A stretch of 64,000 bases of DNA from Rubellimicrobium rubrum (GTDB taxonomy: Bacteria; Pseudomonadota; Alphaproteobacteria; Rhodobacterales; Rhodobacteraceae), in contig NZ_VDFU01000020.1 of the NCBI RefSeq assembly GCF_006152115.1, forward strand, positions 1-64,000, read 5' to 3'. Below the pieces are notes generated by a model. The model did no database searches, was not told where the DNA came from, and saw only the letters and a program-made list of their open reading frames with translations. Positions 83-19,617 of the stretch are shown piece after piece (the stretch's first letter is position 1; each line of letters begins with the position of its first letter). The translations under genes and the position numbers were made by a program.

Positions 83-1087
83 TCAACCGAGGATCTCGGA
101 AACCTTGACGGCGCGGCCTTCCTGAACCGACTTCAGCGCCGCGTCCGCGAGGGCAAGCGCCTGGAGCCCGTCCTCTCCGGTCGTTGGCGTCACGCCCTTG
201 GAGTTCACGGCCCGGATGAAGCCCGCGATCTCGTTGGCATAGGCCGCGATGTACCGGGTCATGAAGAAATTGAGAAGGGGCGGACGCGTGAAGCCCTGTT
301 CGGTCGCGACCTCGATGTTGGCCTCGCGCATGTTCTCGGCCGACACCGCGCCCTTGGACCCCAAAACCTCGATGCGCTGGTCGTAGCCGTAGGTGGCACG
401 GCGCGAGTTGGTGATGACGGCCTGACGGCCCGAGGCGGTGCGCAGGATGACGTTGACGGAGTCGAAGTCGCCCAAGGTGCCGATTTCCGGGTCGGTGAGG
501 ACGGAGGCCTGCGCGACGACGGTCTCGGGCTCCTCGCCCAGGAGCCAGCGGGCCATGTCGAAGTCGTGGATCGTCATGTCGCGGAAGATGCCGCCCGAGC
601 GCTTGATGTAGTCGGCCGGGGGCGCGCCGGGGTCGCGGGAGGAGATGGTGACCATCTCCACGTCGCCGATATGGCCTTCGTCGATGGCGGCTTTCACGGC
701 CATGAAGTCAGGGTCGAACCGGCGATTGAAGCCCACCATCAGGGTCGCGCCCGTGTCCTTGACGACCTTCAGGCAGTCCTGCACGCGCTGCACGGACAGA
801 TCGACCGGCTTTTCGCAGAACACGGCCTTGCCGGCGCGGGCGAAGCGCTCGATCAGGTCGGCATGGGTGTCGGTTGGGGTGCAGATGACCACGGCGTCGA
901 TGTCGGAGGACTGCTCGATCTGGTCGATGGTCCGGATGTCGCAACCATAGTCGCGGGCCAGCGATTCGGCGGCGGCGGGGATGGCATCCGCCACGGCCAC
1001 GAGCTCGGCATTGGCGTCGGAGCGGATGGCCCGCGCATGCACCTTGCCGATACGGCCCGCGCCCAGAAGCCCGAATTTCACTGTCAT
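83..1087 (-). CDS. iolG: Inositol 2-dehydrogenase
   Basis: A 334-residue Gfo/Idh/MocA-family oxidoreductase, the normal length for IolG, which oxidises myo-inositol to scyllo-inosose with NAD. The Rossmann motif GAGRIGKVHA is at residues 9-18, the EKP motif puts the catalytic lysine at about residue 93, and DMTIHDFD near residue 170 supplies the Asp and His spaced as in Bacillus IolG (D170, H174). It sits between the sugar ABC importer and iolC on the minus strand, so import and the first oxidation are linked. Specificity for myo- rather than scyllo-inositol cannot be read from the sequence. Confidence 0.9.
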   Translation of the reverse strand: MTVKFGLLGAGRIGKVHARAIRSDANAELVAVADAIPAAAESLARDYGCDIRTIDQIEQSSDIDAVVICTPTDTHADLIERFARAGKAVFCEKPVDLSVQRVQDCLKVVKDTGATLMVGFNRRFDPDFMAVKAAIDEGHIGDVEMVTISSRDPGAPPADYIKRSGGIFRDMTIHDFDMARWLLGEEPETVVAQASVLTDPEIGTLGDFDSVNVILRTASGRQAVITNSRRATYGYDQRIEVLGSKGAVSAENMREANIEVATEQGFTRPPLLNFFMTRYIAAYANEIAGFIRAVNSKGVTPTTGEDGLQALALADAALKSVQEGRAVKVSEILG

Positions 1088-1174: not shown

Positions 1175-1945
1175 TCACATCAGGGCGGCGGCTACGTTCT
1201 GCGTCTTTACGCCCGTGATGTAGGCCACGATGTCGTTGCCGTCGGTCTCGTCCTTGCGGAGGTTGGCGACGATATGCCCCCGGCGGAAGACCACGATCCG
1301 GTCCACGAGGTCGAAGACCTGCCGCAGGTTGTGGCTGATGAGGACGAGCGCGATCCCGCGTGCCTTGAGCGTGCGGATGATGTTCTCGACTTGCGCGGTT
1401 TCCTGGACACCAAGGGCGGCCGTGGGTTCGTCCATGATGATCATCTTGGACGCGAAGGTCGCCGAACGGGCGATGGCCACCCCCTGCCGCTGCCCGCCGG
1501 ACATGCGGCGGATGGCGTAGTCGAGCCGCGGGATGCGGACTCCGGTCGCCTTGAGCCCGTCCTCGGTCGCCTTGCGCATGCCGCGCCGGTCCAGGATCGA
1601 GAACGGCCCGAGGTTGAGCAGAATCTTCTCGCGGCCCAGGAACAGGTTCGCGGGTACGTCGAGGTCATCGGCCAGCGCGAGGTTTTGGAACACGCATTCC
1701 ATCCCGGCCTCGCGGGCGTCGAGCGGCCCCGCGAAGGTCACCTCGTTGCCGTCGAACCAGATGCGGCCAGCGGTGCGCTGCTCCACGCCCGTGATCTGGC
1801 GGACGAAGGTCGACTTGCCGGCGCCGTTGTCGCCCACGATGGCGACGTGCTCGCCTTCCTTGACCTCGAAATCCGCGTCCACGAGGGCCTGGATGCCACC
1901 GTAGTGCTTTGTGAGACCTTCGGTCTTGAGAACGGTTTTGACCAT
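1175..1945 (-). CDS. Sugar (probably inositol) ABC importer, ATP-binding protein
   Basis: A 256-residue single-domain ATPase of the sugar ABC family. It has Walker A GDNGAGKS, signature MSGGQRQG and Walker B MIIMDEPTAAL. Being single-domain, it is about half the length of RbsA/MglA, which are tandem duplications, and resembles the short ATPases paired with inositol or ribose-type binding proteins in alphaproteobacteria. The start at MVKTVLKTEG is chosen over an upstream in-frame Met because similarity begins there. It is 10 bp downstream of the permease gene. The substrate is inferred from the adjacent iolG and iolC. Confidence 0.88.
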   Translation of the reverse strand: MVKTVLKTEGLTKHYGGIQALVDADFEVKEGEHVAIVGDNGAGKSTFVRQITGVEQRTAGRIWFDGNEVTFAGPLDAREAGMECVFQNLALADDLDVPANLFLGREKILLNLGPFSILDRRGMRKATEDGLKATGVRIPRLDYAIRRMSGGQRQGVAIARSATFASKMIIMDEPTAALGVQETAQVENIIRTLKARGIALVLISHNLRQVFDLVDRIVVFRRGHIVANLRKDETDGNDIVAYITGVKTQNVAAALM

Positions 1946-1955
1946 GTTGGTTTCC

Positions 1956-3002
1956 TCAGTCCACAATGCCGCGGCGCTTCTGCCGGTAGATGTCGGCCAC
2001 GACGGCGGCCACGATGATGAAACCCTTGATCATCTCCTGATAGTAGGCATCCACGCGCAGGAAGGTGAAGCCCGAGATGATCACGCCAAAGATCAGCATG
2101 CCGATGAAGGTTCCGATGATGGAGCCCCGGCCGCCGATCAGCGACACGCCCCCGATCACCGCCATGGCGATGGCGTCGAGTTCGTACATGACGCCCATGC
2201 CCGCCTGAGCGGTCAGGGCCCGCGATCCGGCCACGAGGCCGGCGACGGCGGACAGCATGCCCGCTATGGCATAAACCGTGACGAGGTGACGTTCCACGTT
2301 GATGCCGGCCATGCGGGCGGCCGCCGCGTTCGAGCCGATCGCATAGGTATGGCGACCATAAAGCGTGTAGGTCAGCACCAGCTGGAACAGGATGGCGATG
2401 CCGGCGAAGATAATGACCGGCATCATGCCCGCGCCGATGGCCGCGAAATCGGCGGTCGGGTTCGACACCGCCTGCCCTTCGGTCCACCATTTGGCCACCC
2501 CCCGGGCCGTCACCATCATGCCGAGCGTCGCGATGAACGGCGGGATCTTGGTGTAGGCGATCACGGCGCCGTTGATGAGGCCGGCGAGCAGGCCGAGAAA
2601 CAGGCCGACGATGATCGGCATGAAAACCGGCAGGTCGACCCAGCCCTGGTTCCAGAACACCGCGTCGGTGAAGTCCTGGCCGTTCCGGGTGCCCATCTGG
2701 GCAAAGCTCATGGCGATGATCGCGGTGGCTCCGACGATGGAGCCCGAGGACAGGTCGATACCGCCCGTGATGATCACCTGGGTCACGCCCACGGCGATGA
2801 TCCCAATGACGGACACCTGCAGGATCATGATCGACAGGCGGGACCAGTTGAAGAGAAAGCTGTCGCCACGGACCATCCACCCGGCGATCTCGAAGATCAG
2901 GGCGATGGCGACGAGGCCCAGAAGTGCGTTGAGTTCCATGGGCCAGTTGCGGCGCCGCTGCGGCGCGGCGGCTCGGCCGGGATTGATTGCGAGTTCGGCC
3001 AT
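1956..3002 (-). CDS. Sugar (probably inositol) ABC importer, permease
   Basis: A 348-residue hydrophobic protein with about ten predicted membrane segments. It belongs to the RbsC/AraH-type permease family; the segment GGIDLSSGSIVGATAI is the family's conserved region. Only one permease gene is present, as in ribose-type importers that work as a homodimer. It is separated from the upstream binding-protein gene by 100 bp containing two strong stem-loops, which would let the binding protein be made in excess. Confidence 0.9.
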   Translation of the reverse strand: MAELAINPGRAAAPQRRRNWPMELNALLGLVAIALIFEIAGWMVRGDSFLFNWSRLSIMILQVSVIGIIAVGVTQVIITGGIDLSSGSIVGATAIIAMSFAQMGTRNGQDFTDAVFWNQGWVDLPVFMPIIVGLFLGLLAGLINGAVIAYTKIPPFIATLGMMVTARGVAKWWTEGQAVSNPTADFAAIGAGMMPVIIFAGIAILFQLVLTYTLYGRHTYAIGSNAAAARMAGINVERHLVTVYAIAGMLSAVAGLVAGSRALTAQAGMGVMYELDAIAMAVIGGVSLIGGRGSIIGTFIGMLIFGVIISGFTFLRVDAYYQEMIKGFIIVAAVVADIYRQKRRGIVD

Positions 3003-3102: not shown

Positions 3103-4068
3103 TCAGTTCGCCGTCATGTAATCCTGCAGGTTCTCGGGCGTGACGAGCTGGAAGGGGATGTAGACCTTCTGCTCGACCGCTTCCCCGCCGGCCAGCGCGA
3201 GCGCAGCGTTGACAGCCCCCCGGCCCTGCCCCGCTGCGTCCTGGAACACCGTCACGTCGAGGTCGCCGGCCTGCATGGCCGCAAGCGCGTCCTGGGTGGC
3301 GTCGATGCCGGCGACGACGACGGAGTCCATCGCGATGCCCGCCGACTTGAGAGCTTGGATCGCGCCGATCGCCATCTCGTCGTTGTTGGCGACTACGGCG
3401 TCATACTCCACGCCCGCCGTGATCCAGTTCGCCATGAGGTCGGCGCCCTGCTGACGCTGCCAGTTACCCGTCTGCTCCTCGACGATCTTCATGAACGAAC
3501 AGTCGGGGGTGGCGGCGGTGTCATGGATCATCTGGGTCCGCACCACGGCGCCCTGGTTCGACAGCTCGCCCTGCAGGACCAGCAGGTTGGCTTGCGGCGC
3601 GCCGTTCTCCTTCAACAAGCGGCAGACCTCGGTGGCCTGCAGCGTGCCGGCTTCGGTCTCGTCGGAGGCGACGAAAGCCTGGTTGTCGGGCAGCGTGTCG
3701 ATGTTGATGGGCTGGCGGTTGACGTAGACGAGCGGAATGCCAGCGGCGGCAGCGGCGTCGGAGATGGCCTGGGTGGCCGAGGTATCCACGGCGTTGACGA
3801 CGATGGCATCCACGCCAGCTGCGATGAAGTTCTCGATCTGGTTGAGCTGCTTGCCGACGTCATCCTCGGCGTCTTCGATCTGGAGGTCCACACCGTCCAG
3901 CGTTTCGGCATGCTCGACCATGCCGTTGCGCAGCACGGTCAGGAAGTTGTCGTCGAACGCGGACATCGAGACGCCGACGGTCTTGGTGCCGCCGGCCGAG
4001 GACATGACGCCGACGAATCCCGCGGTCACGCCGACGACTCCCGCGGCCAAGAGGATCTTCTTATTCAC
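3103..4068 (-). CDS. Sugar (probably inositol) ABC importer, periplasmic binding protein
   Basis: A 321-residue periplasmic binding protein of the RbsB-like (peripla_BP_4) family. It has a hydrophobic export signal over about residues 5-25, then the opening TVGVSMSAFDDNF and the hinge-region signatures VVANNDEMAIGA and VVVAGIDATQDAL. The start codon is GTG, preceded by a GGAGGT Shine-Dalgarno six bases upstream. It is the first gene of the importer on the minus strand. The ligand is inferred to be an inositol from the adjacent iolG; ribose-type sugars are the alternative. Confidence 0.88.
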   Translation of the reverse strand: MNKKILLAAGVVGVTAGFVGVMSSAGGTKTVGVSMSAFDDNFLTVLRNGMVEHAETLDGVDLQIEDAEDDVGKQLNQIENFIAAGVDAIVVNAVDTSATQAISDAAAAAGIPLVYVNRQPINIDTLPDNQAFVASDETEAGTLQATEVCRLLKENGAPQANLLVLQGELSNQGAVVRTQMIHDTAATPDCSFMKIVEEQTGNWQRQQGADLMANWITAGVEYDAVVANNDEMAIGAIQALKSAGIAMDSVVVAGIDATQDALAAMQAGDLDVTVFQDAAGQGRGAVNAALALAGGEAVEQKVYIPFQLVTPENLQDYMTAN

Positions 4069-4162: not shown

Positions 4163-4981
4163 TCAGGCCGCTTGGGCGGAGAGCCGGGCGGCGATGATGT
4201 CCATGGAGCGGCGCAGTGCGCCGACCGGGTCGGCCGCAGCATGGACCTCGGGGGCGAAGCACTCGAAGCTGACGGGTCCCCGCCAGCCCGCAGCCTGAAG
4301 CGCCGCCAGTTGATCGAGGTTGCCGAGCCGGTCCGCGCCGTCCACCAGGACCCGATGCCGGTCGGCCATATCCTCCACGGCAAGGCCGGGCTCGACCACG
4401 CCAAAGACATGCACGACGCCCGTATGGGCGGGCCAGAGCGGACCACCCCCGGCCAGGTGGTGGTGGAAGGTGTCGTGCACCAGCCGGAAGCGCCCGGTGG
4501 CGTCCAGCGCCTCGATCGCCTCAACGGCCTCGGCCTTGTGCCGCAGCGCGCAGATCGGAAAGCCCAGCGGCTCCACCAGCCCGATCAGGTCGTGATCCTC
4601 GAGCATGGGCTTGAGTTCGAGCAGCGCGAGACGCAGGTTGGCCTGCCTTTCGCCGTTGCCCATCCCGCCATTGTCGTTGCGCGGGATGAGGGCCACGGCC
4701 TCGGCCCCGCAGGCACGCGCGGCACGCATCAACGCTTCCGCTTCGGCCCGCCGCTCAGGGCCCCAGTCGTTGAAGCGCTTGACCTCGGCCAGGGCCAGGA
4801 TGCGGAGGCCCTTCTCCTTGGCAAGGTCGCCCGCCGCTTCGGGTGCGAGGCCGTCGAACAGGGGGCCGGGAAGGTCGTTGCGGACCTCCACCCCGATGCA
4901 GCCCAGGGCCTTGGCCGTATCCAGAAGGCCCAGATAGGGCATCCGTGCCAGCGTCATGTGGTTAATAGCGAAATCAGGCAT
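4163..4981 (-). CDS. Sugar phosphate isomerase/epimerase-like TIM-barrel protein
   Basis: A 272-residue protein of the xylose-isomerase-like TIM-barrel superfamily, which includes IolE, IolI and hydroxypyruvate isomerase. Candidate metal ligands are the Glu in LVEPLGF, the HDTFHHH cluster, the His in VHVFGV and the Glu in SFECFAP. The start MPDFAINHMTL is chosen because similarity begins there; an upstream in-frame Met would add 32 unconserved residues. It lies between lacI and the importer, so it probably acts on the imported cyclitol or a derivative. I cannot tell an IolE-type dehydratase from an IolI-type isomerase. Confidence 0.75.
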   Translation of the reverse strand: MPDFAINHMTLARMPYLGLLDTAKALGCIGVEVRNDLPGPLFDGLAPEAAGDLAKEKGLRILALAEVKRFNDWGPERRAEAEALMRAARACGAEAVALIPRNDNGGMGNGERQANLRLALLELKPMLEDHDLIGLVEPLGFPICALRHKAEAVEAIEALDATGRFRLVHDTFHHHLAGGGPLWPAHTGVVHVFGVVEPGLAVEDMADRHRVLVDGADRLGNLDQLAALQAAGWRGPVSFECFAPEVHAAADPVGALRRSMDIIAARLSAQAA

Positions 4982-5141
4982 TCCGATCACGCTCCCGCGC
5001 GGCGGCACCGTTGATCGGCGCCCCTTTTCCGGCGTCGGTCCAAGGGTCCCCTGAAGCCGAATGATGCGGACCGCCAACTCGGAGCGCGGTCGAATGCGAC
5101 ATCCCTGCTATGTTGGCCCTCAGGCTCATGACATGATCCCA

Positions 5142-6173
5142 TCAAACAGACTCGGGCAGGATCAACTCCGGTCGGAGGAAGTGCTGCCCCGCCACCTCCG
5201 AGGGTCCGGCCTTTGCCGCTTCTGCCATGAGACGAACCAGATCGTCGCAGAGCTGGGGAAGCGGCGTGGCGATAACCATTGTTACGAACCCGTCAACCAA
5301 TCCACCTCGGGATTGGGGCGTGAGTTCGTTCACAACAAGGCAAACCTCGCTTGGCTTGCGAACTTCCCGCACGGCGGCGATGGTGCCCTCCATCCTGCCG
5401 CCCGCCACGTAGATCCCCCGCAACTCCGGGTGGCGGGCAAGCAGGTCGAGCGTGGCCTCATAGGTGAGCTGACGGGTCTCAAGGTTCGCCAATGTATCGA
5501 GAATCTGAAACCGGGGGGCGTATTCCCGGAACCAGCTTCGGAAACCAGCCTCGCGCAGTTCGTGCCCATGCCAGCGGTGCCCGCCGACGAAGACCGCGAC
5601 CTTGCCCGGCCCGCGCGCAGCCATCCCTATCAGCGATGCCGCGATCCGGCCGACCTTGAGGTTGTTCAGCCCAAGGTAGTTCTGCCGCACTCCCGGTGCG
5701 AAGTCGTTAAGAAGTGCGAAGGTCGGAATGCCCTCGGCCTTGAGAGTCGCCACGACGTCCGTGACATCCGGATGCGTGACGGCACTCGCCGCAATGACAT
5801 CGGCCCGTCCTCTCATTCCTTGCATCAGCGCGACGAAGTCGGCCGGCGACTGTGAAGTAGCGAACTCGATGACAGGCTTGACCCGGAGGCCCGTCGCGCG
5901 GGCCGCTGCGGCCTCCAGCTCTGCAGCGAGGTTCTGATAAAAGACCTCACGTTCCTTGTGCAGAACCACCCCCATCCGCAGCACGGGAAGGTCGGCCTGC
6001 AACCTTTGAGCGTTAAGGGGCGCTGCGTGGTAGCCGATCCGGCGCGCGGCATCGTAGACGCGACGAGCCGTTTCCTCCCGCACCTGCTCGCGGCCATTGA
6101 GAACGCGGTCAACGGTCGCCTGGCTGACTCCGGCGGCCTTGGCCACATCCTGTATTGTCGGGCGACGCGCCAT
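5142..6173 (-). CDS. LacI-family transcriptional regulator
   Basis: A 343-residue regulator with an N-terminal LacI helix-turn-helix (TIQDVAKAAGVSQATVDRVL, about residues 6-25) and a periplasmic-binding-protein-like effector domain from about residue 65. It is encoded upstream of the TIM-barrel and importer genes and divergently from the broken MocD/MocE/PanB-like genes, so it probably controls both directions in response to a cyclitol (inference). I could not pick out a convincing operator in the 154-bp divergent gap. Confidence 0.88.
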   Translation of the reverse strand: MARRPTIQDVAKAAGVSQATVDRVLNGREQVREETARRVYDAARRIGYHAAPLNAQRLQADLPVLRMGVVLHKEREVFYQNLAAELEAAAARATGLRVKPVIEFATSQSPADFVALMQGMRGRADVIAASAVTHPDVTDVVATLKAEGIPTFALLNDFAPGVRQNYLGLNNLKVGRIAASLIGMAARGPGKVAVFVGGHRWHGHELREAGFRSWFREYAPRFQILDTLANLETRQLTYEATLDLLARHPELRGIYVAGGRMEGTIAAVREVRKPSEVCLVVNELTPQSRGGLVDGFVTMVIATPLPQLCDDLVRLMAEAAKAGPSEVAGQHFLRPELILPESV

Positions 6174-6327: not shown

Positions 6328-7422
6328 ATGGCGAAGCGGAACTACAGTCTGCTCGGACCCGATGGGCAGCGGGCAGTCGAAAGCGGATTAGCCGCTGCGG
6401 AGCGGTACCACACCGAGGTTCCGCGCAAGGCCATGAAGGAGCTGATGCAGCGCAGGGACGGCCCAGCCCTTCGGGACACGGCGATTTGGCTGGGCAGCAT
6501 GATCGCTCTGGCCGGAGTTGCCATCGCGCTTTGGGTGGACGGGCACCCCTGGCCGTCCGTGCCGTTCTGGCTGGCCTATGGCGTCCTTTAAGGGTCGGCG
6601 TCGGATTTGCGCTGGCACGAGACGCAGCACGGGACGGCCTTCAAGACCCCCTGGATGAACGAGTGGGTGTACCAGATCGCCTGCTTCATGATCGTGCGGA
6701 ACCCGCATTCCTGGCGTTCGTCCCATGCGAGTCACCACACCGACACCTACATCGTCGGGCGTGACCCCGAGATCGCGATCATGCGCCCGCCCGAGATGGC
6801 CAAGCTGGTGGCGAGTTTCTTCGGCCTCCTCGATGCCTGGAACGGCTGGGGCCGCATGCTGCTGAACGCGACCGGCCGCCTCCATCCCGAGGAGGCCACC
6901 TACATCCCCGAATCCGAGAAGCCCAAGGTCGTCCGAGTCGCCCACATCTGGGTCGTCCTATAGGCTGGGACCATCGCGCTCGCGCTGGCGACCGGTTCGA
7001 TCCTGCCGCTCCTCGTTGTGGGCCTGCCCCGCTTTTATGGCGCCTGGCATCACGTCATGACGGGGTTGCTGCAGCACGGCGGGCTGGCGGATAACGTCAT
7101 CGACCATCGGCTGAACTCGCGGTCCGTGTACATGAACCCGATCAGTCGGTTCATCTACTGGAACATGAACTACCACGTGGAGCATCACATGTTTCCCATG
7201 GTGCCTTATCACGCCCTGCCCCGGCTCCACGAGATCATCAAGCACGACATGCCCGCGCCGAACCGGTCCATCGCCGAGGCGTTCCGCGAGGTGTGGCCGG
7301 CCCTGAAGGGGCAACTTCGCTACGAGGACCATTTCATCAAGCGCGAGCTGCCGGCGACGGTCAAACCCTACCGCCAGGATTTCCACGTCAGTGCGCTCGG
7401 TGGCGCGGTCGCCGCGGAATGA
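6328..7422 (+). pseudogene. MocD-like fatty-acid-desaturase-fold oxygenase, interrupted by two in-frame stops
   Basis: One continuous frame encodes a membrane desaturase-fold protein but carries TAA at 6589-6591 and TAG at 6961-6963. Similarity continues past each stop in the same frame. The histidine boxes are visible in order: RWHETQHG after the first stop, SHASHHTDTY near 6721, and YHVEHHMFP near 7171. The start at 6328 has a strong AAGGAGGAGA ribosome site. Intact relatives pair with a MocE ferredoxin and act as oxygenases in rhizopine-type pathways. Unless the stops are read through, no full-length protein is made, and the first box also looks altered. An assembly error is a less likely alternative. 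Confidence 0.8.
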
Positions 7423-7519
7423 CGGACGGCACGGTCGCCTGCCCCGCACTGGAACACAACGCCGGCCGGGTCCCGCGCCTGGCCGAACCAAGAGACGCCC
7501 ACCAAGAAAGGGATCAGAG

Positions 7520-7825
7520 ATGCCACAGTAGATCGACGCGTACGCGACCGACGACGAGGACGTGATGCGCTGGGATCACGGCGGCAAGACCTATGCCCTG
7601 TACCAAAGCCCCGACGGCGAGTTCTTCTGCACGGACGGTCTATGCACTCACGAGAACGTCCACCTCGCGGGCGGGTTGGTGATGGATTACGTGATCGAGT
7701 GCCCCAAGCACAACGGGCAGTTCGACTATCGCACCGGGCAGGCCAAGCGTGCACCCGTCTGCGTGAACCTGCGGACCTATCCCGCCCGCGCCGAGGGCGG
7801 GCGCGTGCTCGTGCAGGTGGATTGA
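7520..7825 (+). pseudogene. MocE-family Rieske 2Fe-2S ferredoxin with TAG at codon 4
   Basis: The frame starts MPQ, hits TAG at 7529-7531, and continues as a complete Rieske ferredoxin domain with the CTHENVHL and CPKHNGQFD ligand motifs. MocE homologues have Trp where the stop lies, so TGG to TAG is the likely change. A GTG at 7562 is in frame after the stop and could still start a slightly shortened domain, so function may survive. It follows the interrupted oxygenase, for which it would be electron donor. Its stop overlaps the next start by one base, implying an operon. Confidence 0.75.
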
Positions 7826-8630
7826 TGGGGCCATCGCAGCGCTGGACAGTCGCGGACCTGTGCGCCGCGAGAGGGCGGCACAAGTTCGTCATGCTGCGCG
7901 TGGAAACGATGGACGAGGCCGAGGCGGCGGAGAAGGCAGGCGTGGAACTGCTATCTGTACCGCCATCGATGATCATGGACCGGCGTTTCAGCGAAGTGGC
8001 GCCCAAGACTTTCGCTATTCCGGGGGACAATTTCTACAAGATCGGGGACACCTCAGATTTGCTGCGATGGGCGTTCCCGCTTTACCGCGACGGCGCGGAC
8101 GCAGTCTACTGTTCGGGGTCGCTCAGGACTGTGCGGGCGCTCAGCGAGAACGACATCGCGGTCTGCGGGCATGTCGGCCTCGTGCCGTCCAAGCGGACCT
8201 AGACGGGCGGCTTCAAGGCCTTGGGCAAGACGCTCGACAGCGCCAAGCTGCTCTCGGAGCAGTGCAAGGTCCACGAGGACGCAGGGGCGTTCGCCAAGGA
8301 GATCGAAGTGGTGCCCCAGCAGATCACCGAAGCCATCGCGGAACGGACGAGCCTGTTCATGATCTCGATGTGCGGGGGAGCCAAGGGGCACGCGCAATAC
8401 CTGTTCACGGACGACGTGCTGGGGCAGACAGCAGGCAAGGTGCCGCGTCATGCCAAGGTTTGTGCCGACTTCCGCTCGGAGCAGGAACGGCTGCAAACCA
8501 TGCGGATCGAAGCCATGCGCGCCTTTGCCGATGACGTGCATGGCGGCGCTATCCGTCCGACAGCTACGTGGTGGGCGCCGAGACCGAGGTCGTAGCGAAA
8601 CTTCGCGACTGGCTCGGGTCGAACGGCTAG
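7825..8630 (+). pseudogene. PanB-like (ketopantoate hydroxymethyltransferase family) protein with a stop and a frameshift
   Basis: The frame encodes a PanB-superfamily TIM barrel: CGHVGLVPSKRT precedes an in-frame TAG (8200-8202), then TGGFKALGKTL continues without shift. Near 8546 the reading changes frame: after DDVHGG the sensible continuation YPSDSYVVGAETEV is in the next frame, as if one G had been lost, and it ends at 8630. PanB-like genes are regular neighbours of MocE in inositol-linked clusters, and this one probably does not make pantothenate. The end overlaps the convergent fumarylacetoacetase gene by 4 bp. Two lesions make full function unlikely. Confidence 0.72.
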
Positions 8631-9274
8631 GCGATCCGCAGCGTCACGGGGGGCACGCCGTCCAGCATGCCCTCCAGACGGTCACCGGGCACCACCGGGC
8701 CGACCCCGGCGGGCGTGCCGGTCATGATCAGGTCGCCAGGCCCTGGGCTGTAGAGGCCCCGAACATGGCCGAGCAGGGCATCGATGCCATGCACCATCTG
8801 GGACAGAGGAGCCTCTTGCCGCGTCACTCCGTTCACCGTCAGGGCCAGCACCGCCTGGGGGTCGGGTCGTCCCCGCACGAGCGGCCCCACGATGGCCGAG
8901 CCCTCGAAATCCTTGGCGGTGTCCCAAGGCTTTCCCGCGGCCTTGGCCTTGGCCTGCAGGTCGCGCCGGGTCATGTCGAGGCCCACGCCGAAACCCCATA
9001 CGTCGCCCCCCTCACCCAGAGCGAGCACGAGCTCGACTTCGTGATGCAGGTCCTGCGTGCCCGGAGGATAGGGCAGGATGCCGTCCGAGGGGATCAGCGC
9101 GAAGGCGGACTTGGTGAACCAGAACGGCGCCTCGCGGTCCACTTGGTTGCCCATCTCGGCCGCATGGGCCTCGTAGTTGCGACCCACGCAGAAGATGCGG
9201 GCGACGGGGTAGACCAGATCCGAGCCGGTCACCGGCAAGACCGGAAGCAGGCGCGGCGGGAATGCGTGTGTCAT
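8627..9274 (-). CDS. Fumarylacetoacetate hydrolase-family protein
   Basis: A 215-residue member of the FAH fold, the compact form typical of acylpyruvases and oxaloacetate decarboxylases rather than the long true fumarylacetoacetase. It contains IFCVGRNYEAHAAEMG near residue 27, metal-binding EVELVLALG, and the C-terminal signature IMTGTPAGVGPV. The start MTHAFPPRL is used because an upstream in-frame Met would add 89 unconserved residues. It ends tail-to-tail with the PanB-like pseudogene and precedes the Pqi genes. The substrate is not predictable. Confidence 0.85.
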   Translation of the reverse strand: MTHAFPPRLLPVLPVTGSDLVYPVARIFCVGRNYEAHAAEMGNQVDREAPFWFTKSAFALIPSDGILPYPPGTQDLHHEVELVLALGEGGDVWGFGVGLDMTRRDLQAKAKAAGKPWDTAKDFEGSAIVGPLVRGRPDPQAVLALTVNGVTRQEAPLSQMVHGIDALLGHVRGLYSPGPGDLIMTGTPAGVGPVVPGDRLEGMLDGVPPVTLRIA

Positions 9275-9320
9275 GGCACCATCCTTGTCCAACCTGAGTT
9301 CCCCACGACGCTTTTCCCGA

Positions 9321-9884
9321 TCAGCGCAGGCCGTTGGCCGCGATCTCCTGCGCGAGTGCCAGGGTCGCCTGTCCGCGCGCGGCGGCGATGGCGGCCGGTC
9401 CGGCCTCGGGCGGCAGAGGGATGCTGACCCGGAACTCCCGCGCACGGTCGCGCCCCGAGCCGTCCTGCGAGGCCACGAAGAACTGCCCGCGCATGAGGAA
9501 GACGCCCGACGCGTCGGCCACGATCTCGGCCACGCGCACATCGACCTGAGCCTCGGCTGGCTCCTCGAAGGGCCAGGGCTCGGGTGCCACGCGGGCCCCG
9601 GTCACCGCGCCCAGCGCACGGGCGAGGTCCAGCGTCACGGCGCGCGCCGGATCGTCAGCCCACTGGGCGCGAGCCACCTGGGTCAGCGCGTTTCCGGGCA
9701 CCTGAACGAAGATCTCGGCGCCCTCGGCATATTCCGGGAGGGAGACGTCCAGCAGTTCCACAGTGGAAAAGGCGATACCGATCCGCTCCTGCGGGACAGC
9801 AAGCGGCACGGTGAAGCGCAAGGGCCGCGGACCGCAGGCCGCCAGGAGAGCGAAGGTCACCAGGACCAAGGGACGGAGCGTCAT
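9321..9884 (-). CDS. pqiC: PqiC/YmbA-type lipoprotein of the intermembrane transport system
   Basis: A 187-residue lipoprotein: the N-terminal hydrophobic stretch ends in the lipobox LLAAC at about residues 14-18, so Cys18 would be lipidated. The rest resembles the ABC-type transport auxiliary lipoprotein family (PqiC/YmbA), which forms the outer-membrane dock for PqiB. It starts 1 bp after the pqiB stop on the same strand, so translation is coupled and the set forms a pqiA-A-B-C operon. The start was set at MTLRPLV so that the signal is N-terminal. Confidence 0.8.
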   Translation of the reverse strand: MTLRPLVLVTFALLAACGPRPLRFTVPLAVPQERIGIAFSTVELLDVSLPEYAEGAEIFVQVPGNALTQVARAQWADDPARAVTLDLARALGAVTGARVAPEPWPFEEPAEAQVDVRVAEIVADASGVFLMRGQFFVASQDGSGRDRAREFRVSIPLPPEAGPAAIAAARGQATLALAQEIAANGLR

Positions 9885-16356: not shown

Positions 16357-17315
16357 GACTGTGCTCCGAGTTGCCCGATCCGCCCGCCCTGTGGCGCAGT
16401 GCCGCCTAGGGCGCGGGCGACAAGCGTCACGTTATGGTCGATCATCCCGAGATAGGTGCCCTCGTAAGTTCCGGCCTCCCCCATCGCGTCCGAGAAGAGC
16501 TGACCGCCGATGACCACCTCGTGCCCTCGGGCGGCGGCACCTTCGAGCAGGGCGCGCAGTCCGCGGTCGGACACGGAGCTTTCGACGAAGACCGCCCGGA
16601 TTCGCCGTTCCACCAACAGGTTCACGAGCGCCTCGATGCGGGCCACTCCGGCCTCGCTTTCGGTGGAGATGCCCTGGATACCTTGAACCTCGAAGTCGAA
16701 GGCGCGGCCGAAATACTTGAAGGCATCGTGGGCGGTCACGAGCACCCTTTGCTCTGCCGGGACGGTGGCGAGCACCTCTTGCGCATAGGCGCCAAGTGCC
16801 GCGAGTTCCAACTGCCAGGGGCCAAGGGCAGCCTCGACGGCGGCGCCGGCCCCGTTGGCCAGCAGGGCCTCCGCGATGGTGTCGGACACGATGGACCAAA
16901 GGCTCGGGTCCATCCACACATGGGGATCGAACCGGTCGGGATACTGGTCGTGCCCAAGGAGCCGGTCGTGAGGCAGCGAGTCCGCCACGGCAACCACCGG
17001 CTTTCGGGAGGCCAGATCGCCGAAGAAGTCCTCCATCTGAGCCTCGAGGAACAGGCCGTGCCAGAGGGTCAGGTCGGCGTTGATCAAGGCCACGATGTCC
17101 GACCGGGTCTGCCGATAGGAATGCGGATCGACCCCCGGCCCCATCAAGGCCCGGACGGCAACGCTCTCGGCGCCAAGGACCCGCGTGGTGTCGGCAATCA
17201 TCCCGGTCGTCGCCACGACATCCCGCACGGCCTGCGCATGGGCCAGGCGAGGCGCGAGAGGAACGGTCGCGAGGCCCATGAGCACGGACCTGCGACGCAA
17301 CGGGGCGGGCGGCAT
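16353..17315 (-). CDS. Mn/Zn/Fe ABC importer, periplasmic metal-binding protein
   Basis: A 320-residue cluster A-I binding protein (TroA/SitA/MntA type) with an export signal over about residues 1-28 that contains a twin arginine (LRRRSVL). Metal ligands are recognisable: the His in GVDPHSY near residue 63, the His in DPHVWMDP near residue 130, a Glu in GISTESEAGV, and an Asp near the C-terminus. It lacks the His-rich loop of ZnuA, which favours Mn or Fe over Zn, but this is only suggestive. It is the first gene of a tightly overlapping four-gene operon. Confidence 0.88.
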   Translation of the reverse strand: MPPAPLRRRSVLMGLATVPLAPRLAHAQAVRDVVATTGMIADTTRVLGAESVAVRALMGPGVDPHSYRQTRSDIVALINADLTLWHGLFLEAQMEDFFGDLASRKPVVAVADSLPHDRLLGHDQYPDRFDPHVWMDPSLWSIVSDTIAEALLANGAGAAVEAALGPWQLELAALGAYAQEVLATVPAEQRVLVTAHDAFKYFGRAFDFEVQGIQGISTESEAGVARIEALVNLLVERRIRAVFVESSVSDRGLRALLEGAAARGHEVVIGGQLFSDAMGEAGTYEGTYLGMIDHNVTLVARALGGTAPQGGRIGQLGAQS

Positions 17316-17345
17316 CCTGTCACCTCATACTATCCTGCCATGATA

Positions 17346-17392
17346 TTGAGACTTAGTCGCAACAATTCAAGTGGATTGAGAATAGTTCGCAA
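17346..17392. promoter_or_regulatory. Two tandem 17-bp dyads, probable metalloregulator operators
   Basis: The two sites are TTGAGACTTAGTCGCAA (17346-17362) and TTGAGAATAGTTCGCAA (17376-17392). Each is a 7-3-7 inverted repeat with a single mismatched pair at the same place, and their centres are exactly 30 bp apart. They lie 31-77 bp upstream of the metal-importer start, where a Fur/Mur/Irr or MntR-type repressor would act. Which regulator binds is not determinable here. Confidence 0.6.
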
Positions 17393-17402
17393 AGATCGCA
17401 GG

Positions 17403-18593
17403 TCATGCGGATGCGATGGCTGCCGGCGTCAACCGGTCGGCCAGCTTGAACATGAATGGATTGATAGCGATCGACAGGAGGGCGGCCGCGAGCACAAGAT
17501 CATGCGTGCCGGTCGACAGAACGCCCAGGCTGGTGCCCAGTCCCGCCAGGATGAAGGTGAACTCCCCTGCTTGGGCGAGGCTTGCCGCCACGATAAGGCC
17601 CGTGCGCCAGTCCTGCCGGAAGGCCCAGGTGATGAGCAGCGCGGCGACCGCCTTGCCGAAGACTACTATGCCCAGAAGACAGATCACGGCGACCGGCCTC
17701 TCGATCAGGATGCCCGGATCGAACAGCATCCCCACCGACACGAAGAACAGGACGGAGAACGCATCCCGAAGCGGCAAGGATCGTTCGGCCGCGCTGTGGC
17801 CCAGGGGCGAGGCCGCAAGGACCAGCCCCGCCACGAAAGCGCCCAATGCGAAGGAGGCGGCGAACACGGCGTAGGCCAGCCACGCGATGCCCATGGCGAT
17901 CGCGAGGACGCCCAGCGTGAACAACTCGCGCGAGCGTTCGTGCGCGATGAGGATCAGCGCCCCGGGCAGAACCCGTGTGCCTACCACGGCCATCAGCAGC
18001 ACGAACGCCGCCACCTTGAGCAGCACCGCCCCGGCCGGCACCAAGAGGCCGGCCAAGCCCCCGTCCCCCTCGGCCGCGGCGACGATGGGGAGGAGGACCA
18101 GCGCCAGGACCATCACCAGATCCTCGACGATCAGCCAGCCTACGGCCAAGCGGCCGGTCGGGCTTCGGACCTGCTGGCGTTCGTCGAGCGCCCGGATGAG
18201 CACTACCGTCGATGCGACCGATACCGAGAACCCCATCAGCAGGGCCTCTGCGTGATCCAGCCCGAAGCCCAGGCCCAAAAGCCAGCCGAGCCCCGTCGCC
18301 GCCGCGATCTGGCTGATCGCTCCGGGCAGGGCGACGGTGCGGACGGCCAGAAGGTCCTTGGGCGAAAAGTGCAGCCCGACGCCGAACATCAGGAGGATCA
18401 CGCCGATCTCGGCCAGTTGGGGCGCGAGATGGACGTCGGCCACGAAGCCCGGCGTGAATGGCCCGACGACGACCCCGGCGAGAATGTAGCCCACAAGCGG
18501 GGCGAGCCGGAGGCGGTTGGCCACGAGTCCCAGTACGAAGGCCAGAACGAACCCCGTGACAAGCAGGGTGATCAGGCTGTGGCCTTCATCCAT
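17403..18593 (-). CDS. CPA2-family cation:proton antiporter, membrane domain only
   Basis: A 396-residue protein with about twelve membrane segments, related to KefB/YbaL. Conserved pieces are GYILAGVVVGP near residue 36, GVGLHFSPKDL near residue 76 and GWLIVEDLVMVLAL near residue 150, whose Glu-Asp pair is typical of these exchangers. YbaL and KefB have about 150 more residues with a nucleotide-binding TrkA-N domain; here the protein ends right after the membrane domain. It precedes the metal importer by 87 bp, which contains the operator dyads. Na+ or K+ exchange with H+ is the general role. Confidence 0.85.
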   Translation of the reverse strand: MDEGHSLITLLVTGFVLAFVLGLVANRLRLAPLVGYILAGVVVGPFTPGFVADVHLAPQLAEIGVILLMFGVGLHFSPKDLLAVRTVALPGAISQIAAATGLGWLLGLGFGLDHAEALLMGFSVSVASTVVLIRALDERQQVRSPTGRLAVGWLIVEDLVMVLALVLLPIVAAAEGDGGLAGLLVPAGAVLLKVAAFVLLMAVVGTRVLPGALILIAHERSRELFTLGVLAIAMGIAWLAYAVFAASFALGAFVAGLVLAASPLGHSAAERSLPLRDAFSVLFFVSVGMLFDPGILIERPVAVICLLGIVVFGKAVAALLITWAFRQDWRTGLIVAASLAQAGEFTFILAGLGTSLGVLSTGTHDLVLAAALLSIAINPFMFKLADRLTPAAIASA

Positions 18594-18687
18594 CGGTCAC
18601 CCGGCATGCGTGTGGAGCGTATGCGCCATGTGCGGCACCGGAGCGGGCCGACGCAAGGGCGCACTCCGCAGGAGGGATGCTCCCGCG

Positions 18688-19617
18688 TCAGGACGGCCGG
18701 GAGAGAAGCGCCTCGATCTCGGCCCGCATGGGCATGGCTGGAGCCGTCCCCGGCCGGGTGACCGAGATCCCTGCCGTAGCGATGCCGAACCTCACCGCAT
18801 CGGCTGGCGAGCGTCCTTCCGACAGAGCCACCGCGAAACCACCGTTGAAGGCGTCGCCCGCGCCTGTCGTTTCCACGACCGGCCCGACGTGGATCGCGGG
18901 CAGGTGCAGGGCGGCTCCATCGCCCGGCACGAGCACGGCGCCTTGGGCTCCCAGCGTCACGACCGCGCCCCCCGCTCCCATGAGGATCAGCATCCGTCCC
19001 GCCGCTTCGGCTGTGATAGGGTCATGGACAAGGAGCCCGGTCAGCGCCTCGGCCTCGCTCTCGTTGGGAGTGACCCAATCGCACAATGCGAGCATGCCGT
19101 CCGGCAAGGGCGCAGCAGGGGCCGGGTTCAGGATGGTGACGACCCCGGCTTCCTTGGCCAGTTGGAGGCCCCGGATCGCGGCCGGAAGAGGCTGCTCCAA
19201 CTGGGTGACGAACACGGACGCCCGGCGGATAAGGTCCGCCCGAGCGTCGATGTCCTCTTCGGAGATGTCGCCTGCCACGCCGGGCGACACGATGATGGCG
19301 TTGTTGCCGGTTCCGGCTTCCAGAAAGATATAGGCGGCTCCGGTATAGCCTTGCTCGCTGAAGGCCACCTCGGGGGTCACGCCTGCCTCGGACCAGGTTC
19401 TGAGCGCGAGGTCGCCGAACGCGTCCCTGGCCAGCCGGGACAGGAAATGGACCTTGCCCCCTGCCTTGGCGGCCGCGACGGCCTGGTTCGACCCTTTTCC
19501 ACCGGGTCCGAGCGCAAAAGAATCGCCCATGACGGTTTCGCCCAGCCGCGGCTGGCGGGCCGCGCGGTATGCGGTGTCGGCGACGAAGACGCCAAGAATT
19601 ACGATGGGGCCCAGCAT
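18688..19617 (-). CDS. rbsK: Ribokinase-family sugar kinase
   Basis: A 309-residue PfkB-family kinase. The substrate-binding GPGGKGSNQAVAAAKAGG is near residue 38, NPAPAAPLP and WVTPNESEAEALTG lie in the middle, and the catalytic ETTGAGDAFNGGFAVAL, with Asp as the base, is near residue 247. This matches ribokinase in length and layout. It begins 4 bp after the mutarotase gene, which with the adjacent ABC system points to uptake and phosphorylation of one sugar such as ribose; the exact sugar is inferred. Confidence 0.88.
   Translation of the reverse strand: MLGPIVILGVFVADTAYRAARQPRLGETVMGDSFALGPGGKGSNQAVAAAKAGGKVHFLSRLARDAFGDLALRTWSEAGVTPEVAFSEQGYTGAAYIFLEAGTGNNAIIVSPGVAGDISEEDIDARADLIRRASVFVTQLEQPLPAAIRGLQLAKEAGVVTILNPAPAAPLPDGMLALCDWVTPNESEAEALTGLLVHDPITAEAAGRMLILMGAGGAVVTLGAQGAVLVPGDGAALHLPAIHVGPVVETTGAGDAFNGGFAVALSEGRSPADAVRFGIATAGISVTRPGTAPAMPMRAEIEALLSRPS

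Follow-up and report, generated by a model that had tools for sequence, protein, structure and literature searches.

A mocD-mocE-PanB-like operon of Rubellimicrobium rubrum has very probably become a set of pseudogenes through ordinary decay

The window analyzed here, a stretch of 64,000 nucleotides, comprises bases 1 to 64000 of contig C12 (NZ_VDFU01000020.1) in the 4.6-Mb draft genome of the soil-type bacterium Rubellimicrobium rubrum and begins at the first base of that contig. Near this end, three interrupted genes on the plus strand stand between open genes on the minus strand:

83..1087, minus strand: inositol 2-dehydrogenase (IolG), open; 424.9 bits on TIGR04380 against a cut-off of 355
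1175-1966, minus strand: ABC ATPase (abcA), open
1956-3002, minus strand: ABC permease (abcP), open
3103..4068, minus strand: sugar ABC transporter substrate-binding protein (sbp), open; Pfam Peripla_BP_4
4163..5077, minus strand: TIM-barrel epimerase/isomerase-like gene (tim), open; Pfam AP_endonuc_2; the true start may be further in
5142..6173, minus strand: LacI-family regulator (lacI), open, divergent from the operon; LacI-type family matches
6328..7422, plus strand: mocD-like pseudogene (oxygenase of the fatty-acid-desaturase type), interrupted by two in-frame stops; two of its three pieces match Pfam FA_desaturase
7520..7825, plus strand: mocE pseudogene (Rieske 2Fe-2S ferredoxin); codon 4 is a stop, and three codons found in homologues are missing
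7825..8630, plus strand: PanB-like pseudogene with one stop and a one-base loss; Pfam Pantoate_transf on both pieces
8627..9274, minus strand: FAA-hydrolase-family gene, convergent, its stop overlapping that of the PanB-like pseudogene; the sequence and the frame list place its start at 9274, and the family match is on the longer frame 8627-9541

In-frame stop codons interrupt mocD at 6589-6591 (TAA) and 6961-6963 (TAG), mocE at 7529-7531 (TAG), and the PanB-like gene at 8200-8202 (TAG), all four at the positions reported in a first-pass annotation made from the letters alone. The one-base loss that it had placed near 8546 was likewise borne out: past approximately 8547, the PanB-like homology resumes one frame over and runs to a TAG at 8628-8630. 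Homology was present across every stop, and the lesions are thus premature stops and a frameshift inside clear homology, the pattern that marks pseudogenes. In a small alignment of relatives, the columns of the stops hold Tyr at 6589 (10 of 10) and 6961 (10 of 10), and Trp at 7529 (9 of 9, although in two of these mocE rows the Trp stands one codon earlier, opposite a gap) and 8200 (7 of 7). The earlier statement that at least two TAGs fall at Trp positions was correct; its corollary, that TGG to TAG is the common change, holds for two stops but not for the other two, which fall at Tyr. The earlier reader missed two further kinds of damage, a 9-base in-frame deletion in mocE, which removes three codons present in relatives, and the missense damage described below. 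The stop codons of the PanB-like pseudogene and of the convergent FAA-hydrolase gene have a CTAG palindrome at 8627-8630 in common.

The further claim that every other full gene in the 64 kb is intact did not conflict with gene calling based on codon usage, although this gene calling chose shadow frames at no fewer than three positions (62-2017, 8053-8541, and 16434-18761). Scanning by codon usage for in-frame stops flanked on either side by coding signal did not discriminate: the window yielded 11 candidates and 22 control stretches yielded 54, and only one of the four known operon stops was flagged.

Comparison with the same operon in relatives, which the first-pass annotation had proposed, yielded open copies in the same gene order. 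The order is kept in R. aerolatum (L024), R. arenae (L028), and R. mesophilum (L039), with the LacI regulator, TIM-barrel enzyme, and ABC transporter on one strand, mocD-mocE-panB on the other, and the FAA-hydrolase gene beyond. Stops inside the best aligned stretch were counted, with frameshifts left uncounted, across a set of 83 loci made up of 80 public contigs, two genus genomes, and the C13 cluster of R. rubrum itself. They occurred in 1 of 83 loci for each of the first two parts of mocD and in 0 of 83 for the third, in 0 of 74 for mocE, and in 0 of 80 for lacI; of the two PanB-like parts, the first had none in 58 loci and the second 1 in 58. Four stops in one operon lie far outside this homologue background.

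Scattered lesions were nevertheless seen among the relatives. The corresponding mocD carries one in-frame TAA in genome G001 (contig C3, L155:8423-8683) and a frameshift in R. mesophilum (L039:6262-6933); these reflect either repeated, independent loss of the gene within the genus or mistakes in assemblies of lower completeness. Single stops were observed in mocD of one Rhodobacterales metagenome bin (L034) and in the PanB-like gene of a Thalassococcus bin (L045). On contig C33 of genome G002 (L201:8046-9434), an extra mocD-like gene with one TAG precedes a mocE match whose middle part is missing; the two look like a further mocDE pair in decay. In two genomes (L155 in G001 and L156 in G005), the corresponding operon consists of mocD and mocE, with no PanB-like match within the 14 kb fetched, and the PanB-like gene seems dispensable to the operon in this part of the genus.

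We next consider replacements at conserved sites, with a near-invariant column defined by at least 98% agreement among the other homologues. The paralogous cluster L157 was excluded, homologue pieces not exceeding 80% of query length were dropped, and L155 and L156 entered only the tests of mocD, mocE, and the neighboring genes. In the window, 13 of 229 near-invariant residues were replaced (mocD, 8 of 135; mocE, 0 of 31; PanB-like gene, 5 of 63), against 3 of 1,143 in the five relatives carrying the complete gene trio (Fisher’s exact test, P = 2e-8) and 6 of 1,473 when L155 and L156 were added (P = 4e-8). The window’s own neighbors (lacI, tim, sbp, abcP, and abcA) showed 5 replacements at 404 sites (P = 0.002 versus the operon), with none at 106 sites in abcP and none at 137 in abcA. 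When the PanB-like count, taken above from a broader set, was repeated with closer homologues, the window departed at 6 of 84 sites and five relatives at 0 of 84 each. Two of the window changes fall in the second histidine box of MocD, where the histidines themselves are kept. Apparently intact genes in relatives also depart from conserved residues, as in abcP (5 of 111 in L023 and 7 of 113 in L156, from a set of only 27 homologues) and tim (3 of 55 in L156).

This damage bears on whether the operon could be intact in the cell, with stops and frameshift introduced by assembly or sequencing error. We regard such an error as very improbable. Completeness of the genome is put at 99.98% and contamination at 0.16%, and the operon combines a whole-codon deletion with its 13 near-invariant replacements, compared with the 5 of 404 in the adjoining genes; random error is an unlikely source of such a pattern, because it would not halt at the operon edges. 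What speaks for error is the position of the locus, 6 to 9 kb from the contig end, together with the two genus relatives with a single mocD lesion, whose assemblies are 88 and 91% complete and in which error is plausible.

Codon models of selection gave different answers according to how sites were treated. A homogeneous branch-omega model indicated no relaxation (0.045 on the window branch versus 0.052 in the background), and a homogeneous two-period model placed the neutral period best at zero. In our opinion, homogeneous models are blind to a short neutral period here, because the branch is too long and its synonymous sites are too saturated. Under a model with three site classes, the three operon genes supported a neutral period of 0.035 substitutions per codon (about 0.007 to 0.07, taken at 1.92 log units; 2ΔlnL = 6.6, with likelihood differences approximate owing to limited optimizer iterations). 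Taken gene by gene, mocD (ΔlnL = 4.0) and the PanB-like gene (ΔlnL = 2.9) favored a neutral period, and mocE alone was best at zero. The sister controls, four only (L023, L025, L028, and L039), were best at zero with 0.02 rejected, as was the window’s own sbp plus abcP, for which a neutral period of 0.02 or more was rejected; the window lacI was best at zero and tim, whose likelihood curve has little slope close to zero, at 0.01, and a value of 0.04 was not rejected for either (ΔlnL = 1.1 and 0.6, respectively).

From these sequence models, we infer that selection was lost late on the window branch, clearly so in mocD and the PanB-like gene. Confinement of the loss to the operon is partly supported: the conserved-site count and sbp plus abcP favor it, but lacI and tim do not. 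The first-pass annotation had offered decay, a local mutation burst, and amber readthrough as alternatives. Decay is the one supported, with purifying selection relaxed on this lineage relative to orthologues and neighbors in mocD and the PanB-like gene, even though the homogeneous models and mocE taken alone were negative.

The number of stops can be compared with that expected from neutral mutation. The best estimate of the site-class model, about 25 neutral mutations in the three genes, predicts 0.9 to 1.5 stops and a probability of 0.01 to 0.06 for four or more; this estimate used stop fractions of 0.035 to 0.06, compared with measured fractions of 0.031 to 0.041, and so leans toward neutrality. 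At the upper bound of the neutral period, the probability of at least four stops rises to 0.10 to 0.34. When the load was sized instead from the conserved-site missense changes, 51 to 54 mutations gave 1.6 to 2.2 expected stops (P = 0.08 to 0.19, at stop fractions of 0.032 to 0.041). All of these probabilities overstate the surprise, because the locus was picked for its stops. Neutral decay suffices: stops and missense changes alike are consistent with a single neutral process, the stops being at most mildly in excess. A local burst, for example through error-prone repair or a targeted mutator that struck the operon beyond neutral decay, would find its support in the slight excess over the best estimate, yet it is not needed once the missense-sized load and the selection of the locus for its stops are considered. 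The nucleotide changes are also of mixed types (39 window changes at the 177 codons for which the genus relatives agree, with C>T the commonest at 11), and conserved-site departures in the neighboring genes are few. We therefore give a burst very little credence.

The predominance of TAG among the stops is likewise expected. From the codons of four relatives, TAG makes up 60 to 70% of the stops reachable in one step, so that three TAGs out of four carry no message. This removes much of the appeal of amber, or more general stop-codon, readthrough, by which full-length proteins would be made across the stops and for which the TAG share and the still readable frames between stops would speak. Amber suppression cannot explain the TAA or the frameshift, and the stops are accompanied by missense damage. 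Release factor 1 (RF1) is intact in the genome, and TAG ends ordinary genes, closing 49 of the 335 gene calls with a recognized stop in 20 control stretches. A suppressor tRNA with a CTA anticodon, for which the first-pass annotation had suggested a search, was absent from the 41 tRNAs read. These comprise 40 genome matches in an Rfam tRNA search, all of which were read by ARAGORN and have ordinary anticodons, and a tRNA-Tyr in the window, also with an ordinary anticodon, whose absence from the Rfam matches shows that those are not exhaustive. Amber recoding was rejected on the grounds of the intact RF1, the lack of a suppressor among these 41 tRNAs, and a TAG share explained by codon content, and we consider readthrough of any kind extremely improbable here. 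TAG-rich stops in such GC-rich genes are what neutral mutation should produce and are no sign of recoding.

Elsewhere in the genome, related genes stand without interruption:

C13:359427-359729: mocE of a second cluster, intact
C13:364703-365779: mocD of the second cluster, intact
C13:365798-366628: PanB-like gene of the second cluster, intact
C27: mocE and PanB-like pair, no stops
C36:229023: canonical panB, intact; 301.7 bits on TIGR00222 against a cut-off of 207.55

The C13 cluster has its own ABC transporter, LacI regulator, and dehydrogenase-like and epimerase-like genes. Its mocD and PanB-like proteins are only about 50 to 65% identical to the pieces of the broken operon, so its substrate may differ. 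Relatives of the C13 mocD, at 73 to 86% identity, occur in six of the seven other genus genomes. Both mocD clusters are present in six of these seven, and the mocD corresponding to the broken one is uninterrupted in four of the six; because such relatives keep both clusters, redundancy alone does not force the loss. It probably allowed it, and losing the first operon was likely cheap, though the substrates of the two clusters may not be the same. Pantothenate synthesis should be unaffected, since the canonical panB is intact.

The ferredoxin gene requires separate treatment. The window mocE belongs to its family by score (152.2 bits on TIGR02377 MocE_fam_FeS against a cut-off of 136.15) and retains the C-x-H and C-x2-H motifs, which we take to be the ligands of the Rieske cluster. 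The intact mocE on C13 is 92% identical to it in DNA over 284 bases, essentially the whole gene (window 7542-7825 versus L157:4179-4462), and the two pair with support of 0.98 and 0.99 in DNA trees but weakly (0.28) in the protein tree. Two other genomes hold similarly alike mocE pairs, each at 99% DNA identity over the gene: G002 (96.6% over 351 bases by blastn, L028:6864-7214 versus L137) and G005 (99.7% over 308 bases, L156:7137-7444 versus L136). Between species, mocE DNA identity is 85 to 91% in the main group and 76 to 82% between G005 and the others. In the three genomes with alike pairs, the stretch of likeness extends hardly beyond the gene and the second copies sit in different surroundings, and gene conversion or repeated re-copying could explain the likeness. 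Only a single mocE scores above the family cut-off in G003, G006, and G007, where both oxygenases may share it. It is conceivable, if somewhat doubtful, that mocE is a shared part of several oxygenase clusters whose copies are repeatedly overwritten or re-copied while the surrounding genes diverge, and that the first operon was free to decay once an intact copy stood in the second cluster. Genomes with a single mocE would then rely on the first-operon copy for both oxygenases. This reading is weakened by the weak protein tree and by the pairs that show no such likeness, namely those of G001 (75%) and G004 (82%) and the C27 copy of R. rubrum itself (80%).

It could also be that mocE alone still works from an internal GTG at 7562, leaving only mocD and the PanB-like gene dead. 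An 87-residue frame that includes the Rieske cluster motif follows this GTG, and mocE shows neither a conserved-site replacement (0 of 31) nor a neutral period. Homologues, in contrast, appear to begin at an upstream ATG, and the C13 cluster supplies an intact, closely similar mocE. Of the 24 differences between the broken mocE and its C13 twin, 11 fall on the broken copy, 2 on the C13 copy, and 11 are ambiguous (11 versus 2, P = 0.02), although the alignment is uncertain next to the deletion, and setting aside the 5 broken-copy differences located there reduces the imbalance to 6 versus 2 (P = 0.29). Five of the 11 changes on the window copy are at first or second codon positions, four of these beside the deletion with the same uncertainty of alignment. 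We judge a working mocE unlikely.

Returning to the operon as a whole, its former function can be sketched from its gene content. The published model of rhizopine catabolism has a ferredoxin oxygenase complex that feeds the inositol pathway (title of a 1998 work cited in PMC10107442). By this model, mocD, a membrane di-iron oxygenase of the fatty-acid-desaturase type, and mocE would in relatives form an oxidative O-demethylase, probably for a methylated inositol-type compound. The PanB-like enzyme, as we see it, probably handles the released one-carbon product. The operon would thus once have stripped methyl groups, probably, from an inositol-like sugar alcohol. The first-pass annotation had named a cyclitol/rhizopine pathway. 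A cyclitol is a fair reading, given that IolG and MocE both pass their family cut-offs, but rhizopine is unsupported: the adjoining substrate-binding protein scores 33.7 bits on the rhizopine-specific model NF052284 (rhzpin_SBP) against 420, and the adjoining regulator matches LacI-type families and not MocR.

Taken together, the evidence makes it very likely that the three genes are one pseudogenized operon, decaying in the ordinary way after the loss of its selective value. That value was most likely lost because the C13 cluster carries intact mocD, mocE, and PanB-like genes, after which stops, a frameshift, a deletion, and missense changes would have gathered at a roughly neutral rate. Pseudogenization was probably fairly recent. 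The locus is a clear case of operon decay in which the adjacent transporter, regulator, and dehydrogenase genes stay open and the genome keeps a second, intact gene set. It suggests that the strain kept the uptake and oxidation of an inositol-type compound and gave up one presumed demethylation route. Among the matches listed in literature searches of partial coverage on rhizopine mocD and mocE, Rubellimicrobium genomes and pseudogenes, and pinitol demethylation, none was seen, by its title or the opening of its abstract, to describe this operon.

Among known systems, the nearest is the rhizopine mocDEF of Sinorhizobium meliloti and Rhizobium leguminosarum. Both have adjacent mocD and mocE genes, the first of the desaturase type and the second encoding a Rieske ferredoxin of the MocE family, with inositol dehydrogenase and sugar ABC transporter genes alongside. 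In the Rubellimicrobium loci that have it, the PanB-like gene directly follows mocE; in many rhizobial loci, it lies about 1.5 kb after the mocE start, with mocF presumably occupying the gap. The divergent regulator here is of the LacI type and not MocR as in the rhizopine system, and, unlike mocDEF, the operon is broken in the R. rubrum genome. With canonical PanB (ketopantoate hydroxymethyltransferase), the third gene has the Pfam Pantoate_transf match in common but falls far below the equivalog cut-off (22.1 and 43.8 bits for its pieces on TIGR00222, and 76 across the stop, against 207.55); the intact PanB-like relative on C13 also falls below it (106.9 bits), and the canonical enzyme is encoded by the separate gene on C36.

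The loss of redundant catabolic operons is a familiar source of bacterial pseudogenes. The present operon resembles this general kind in its stops, frameshift, small deletion, and relaxed constraint, in the open genes that flank it, and in the presence of a second gene set. It differs in that the second-set ferredoxin gene almost duplicates its broken counterpart, whereas the oxygenase and PanB-like genes do not.
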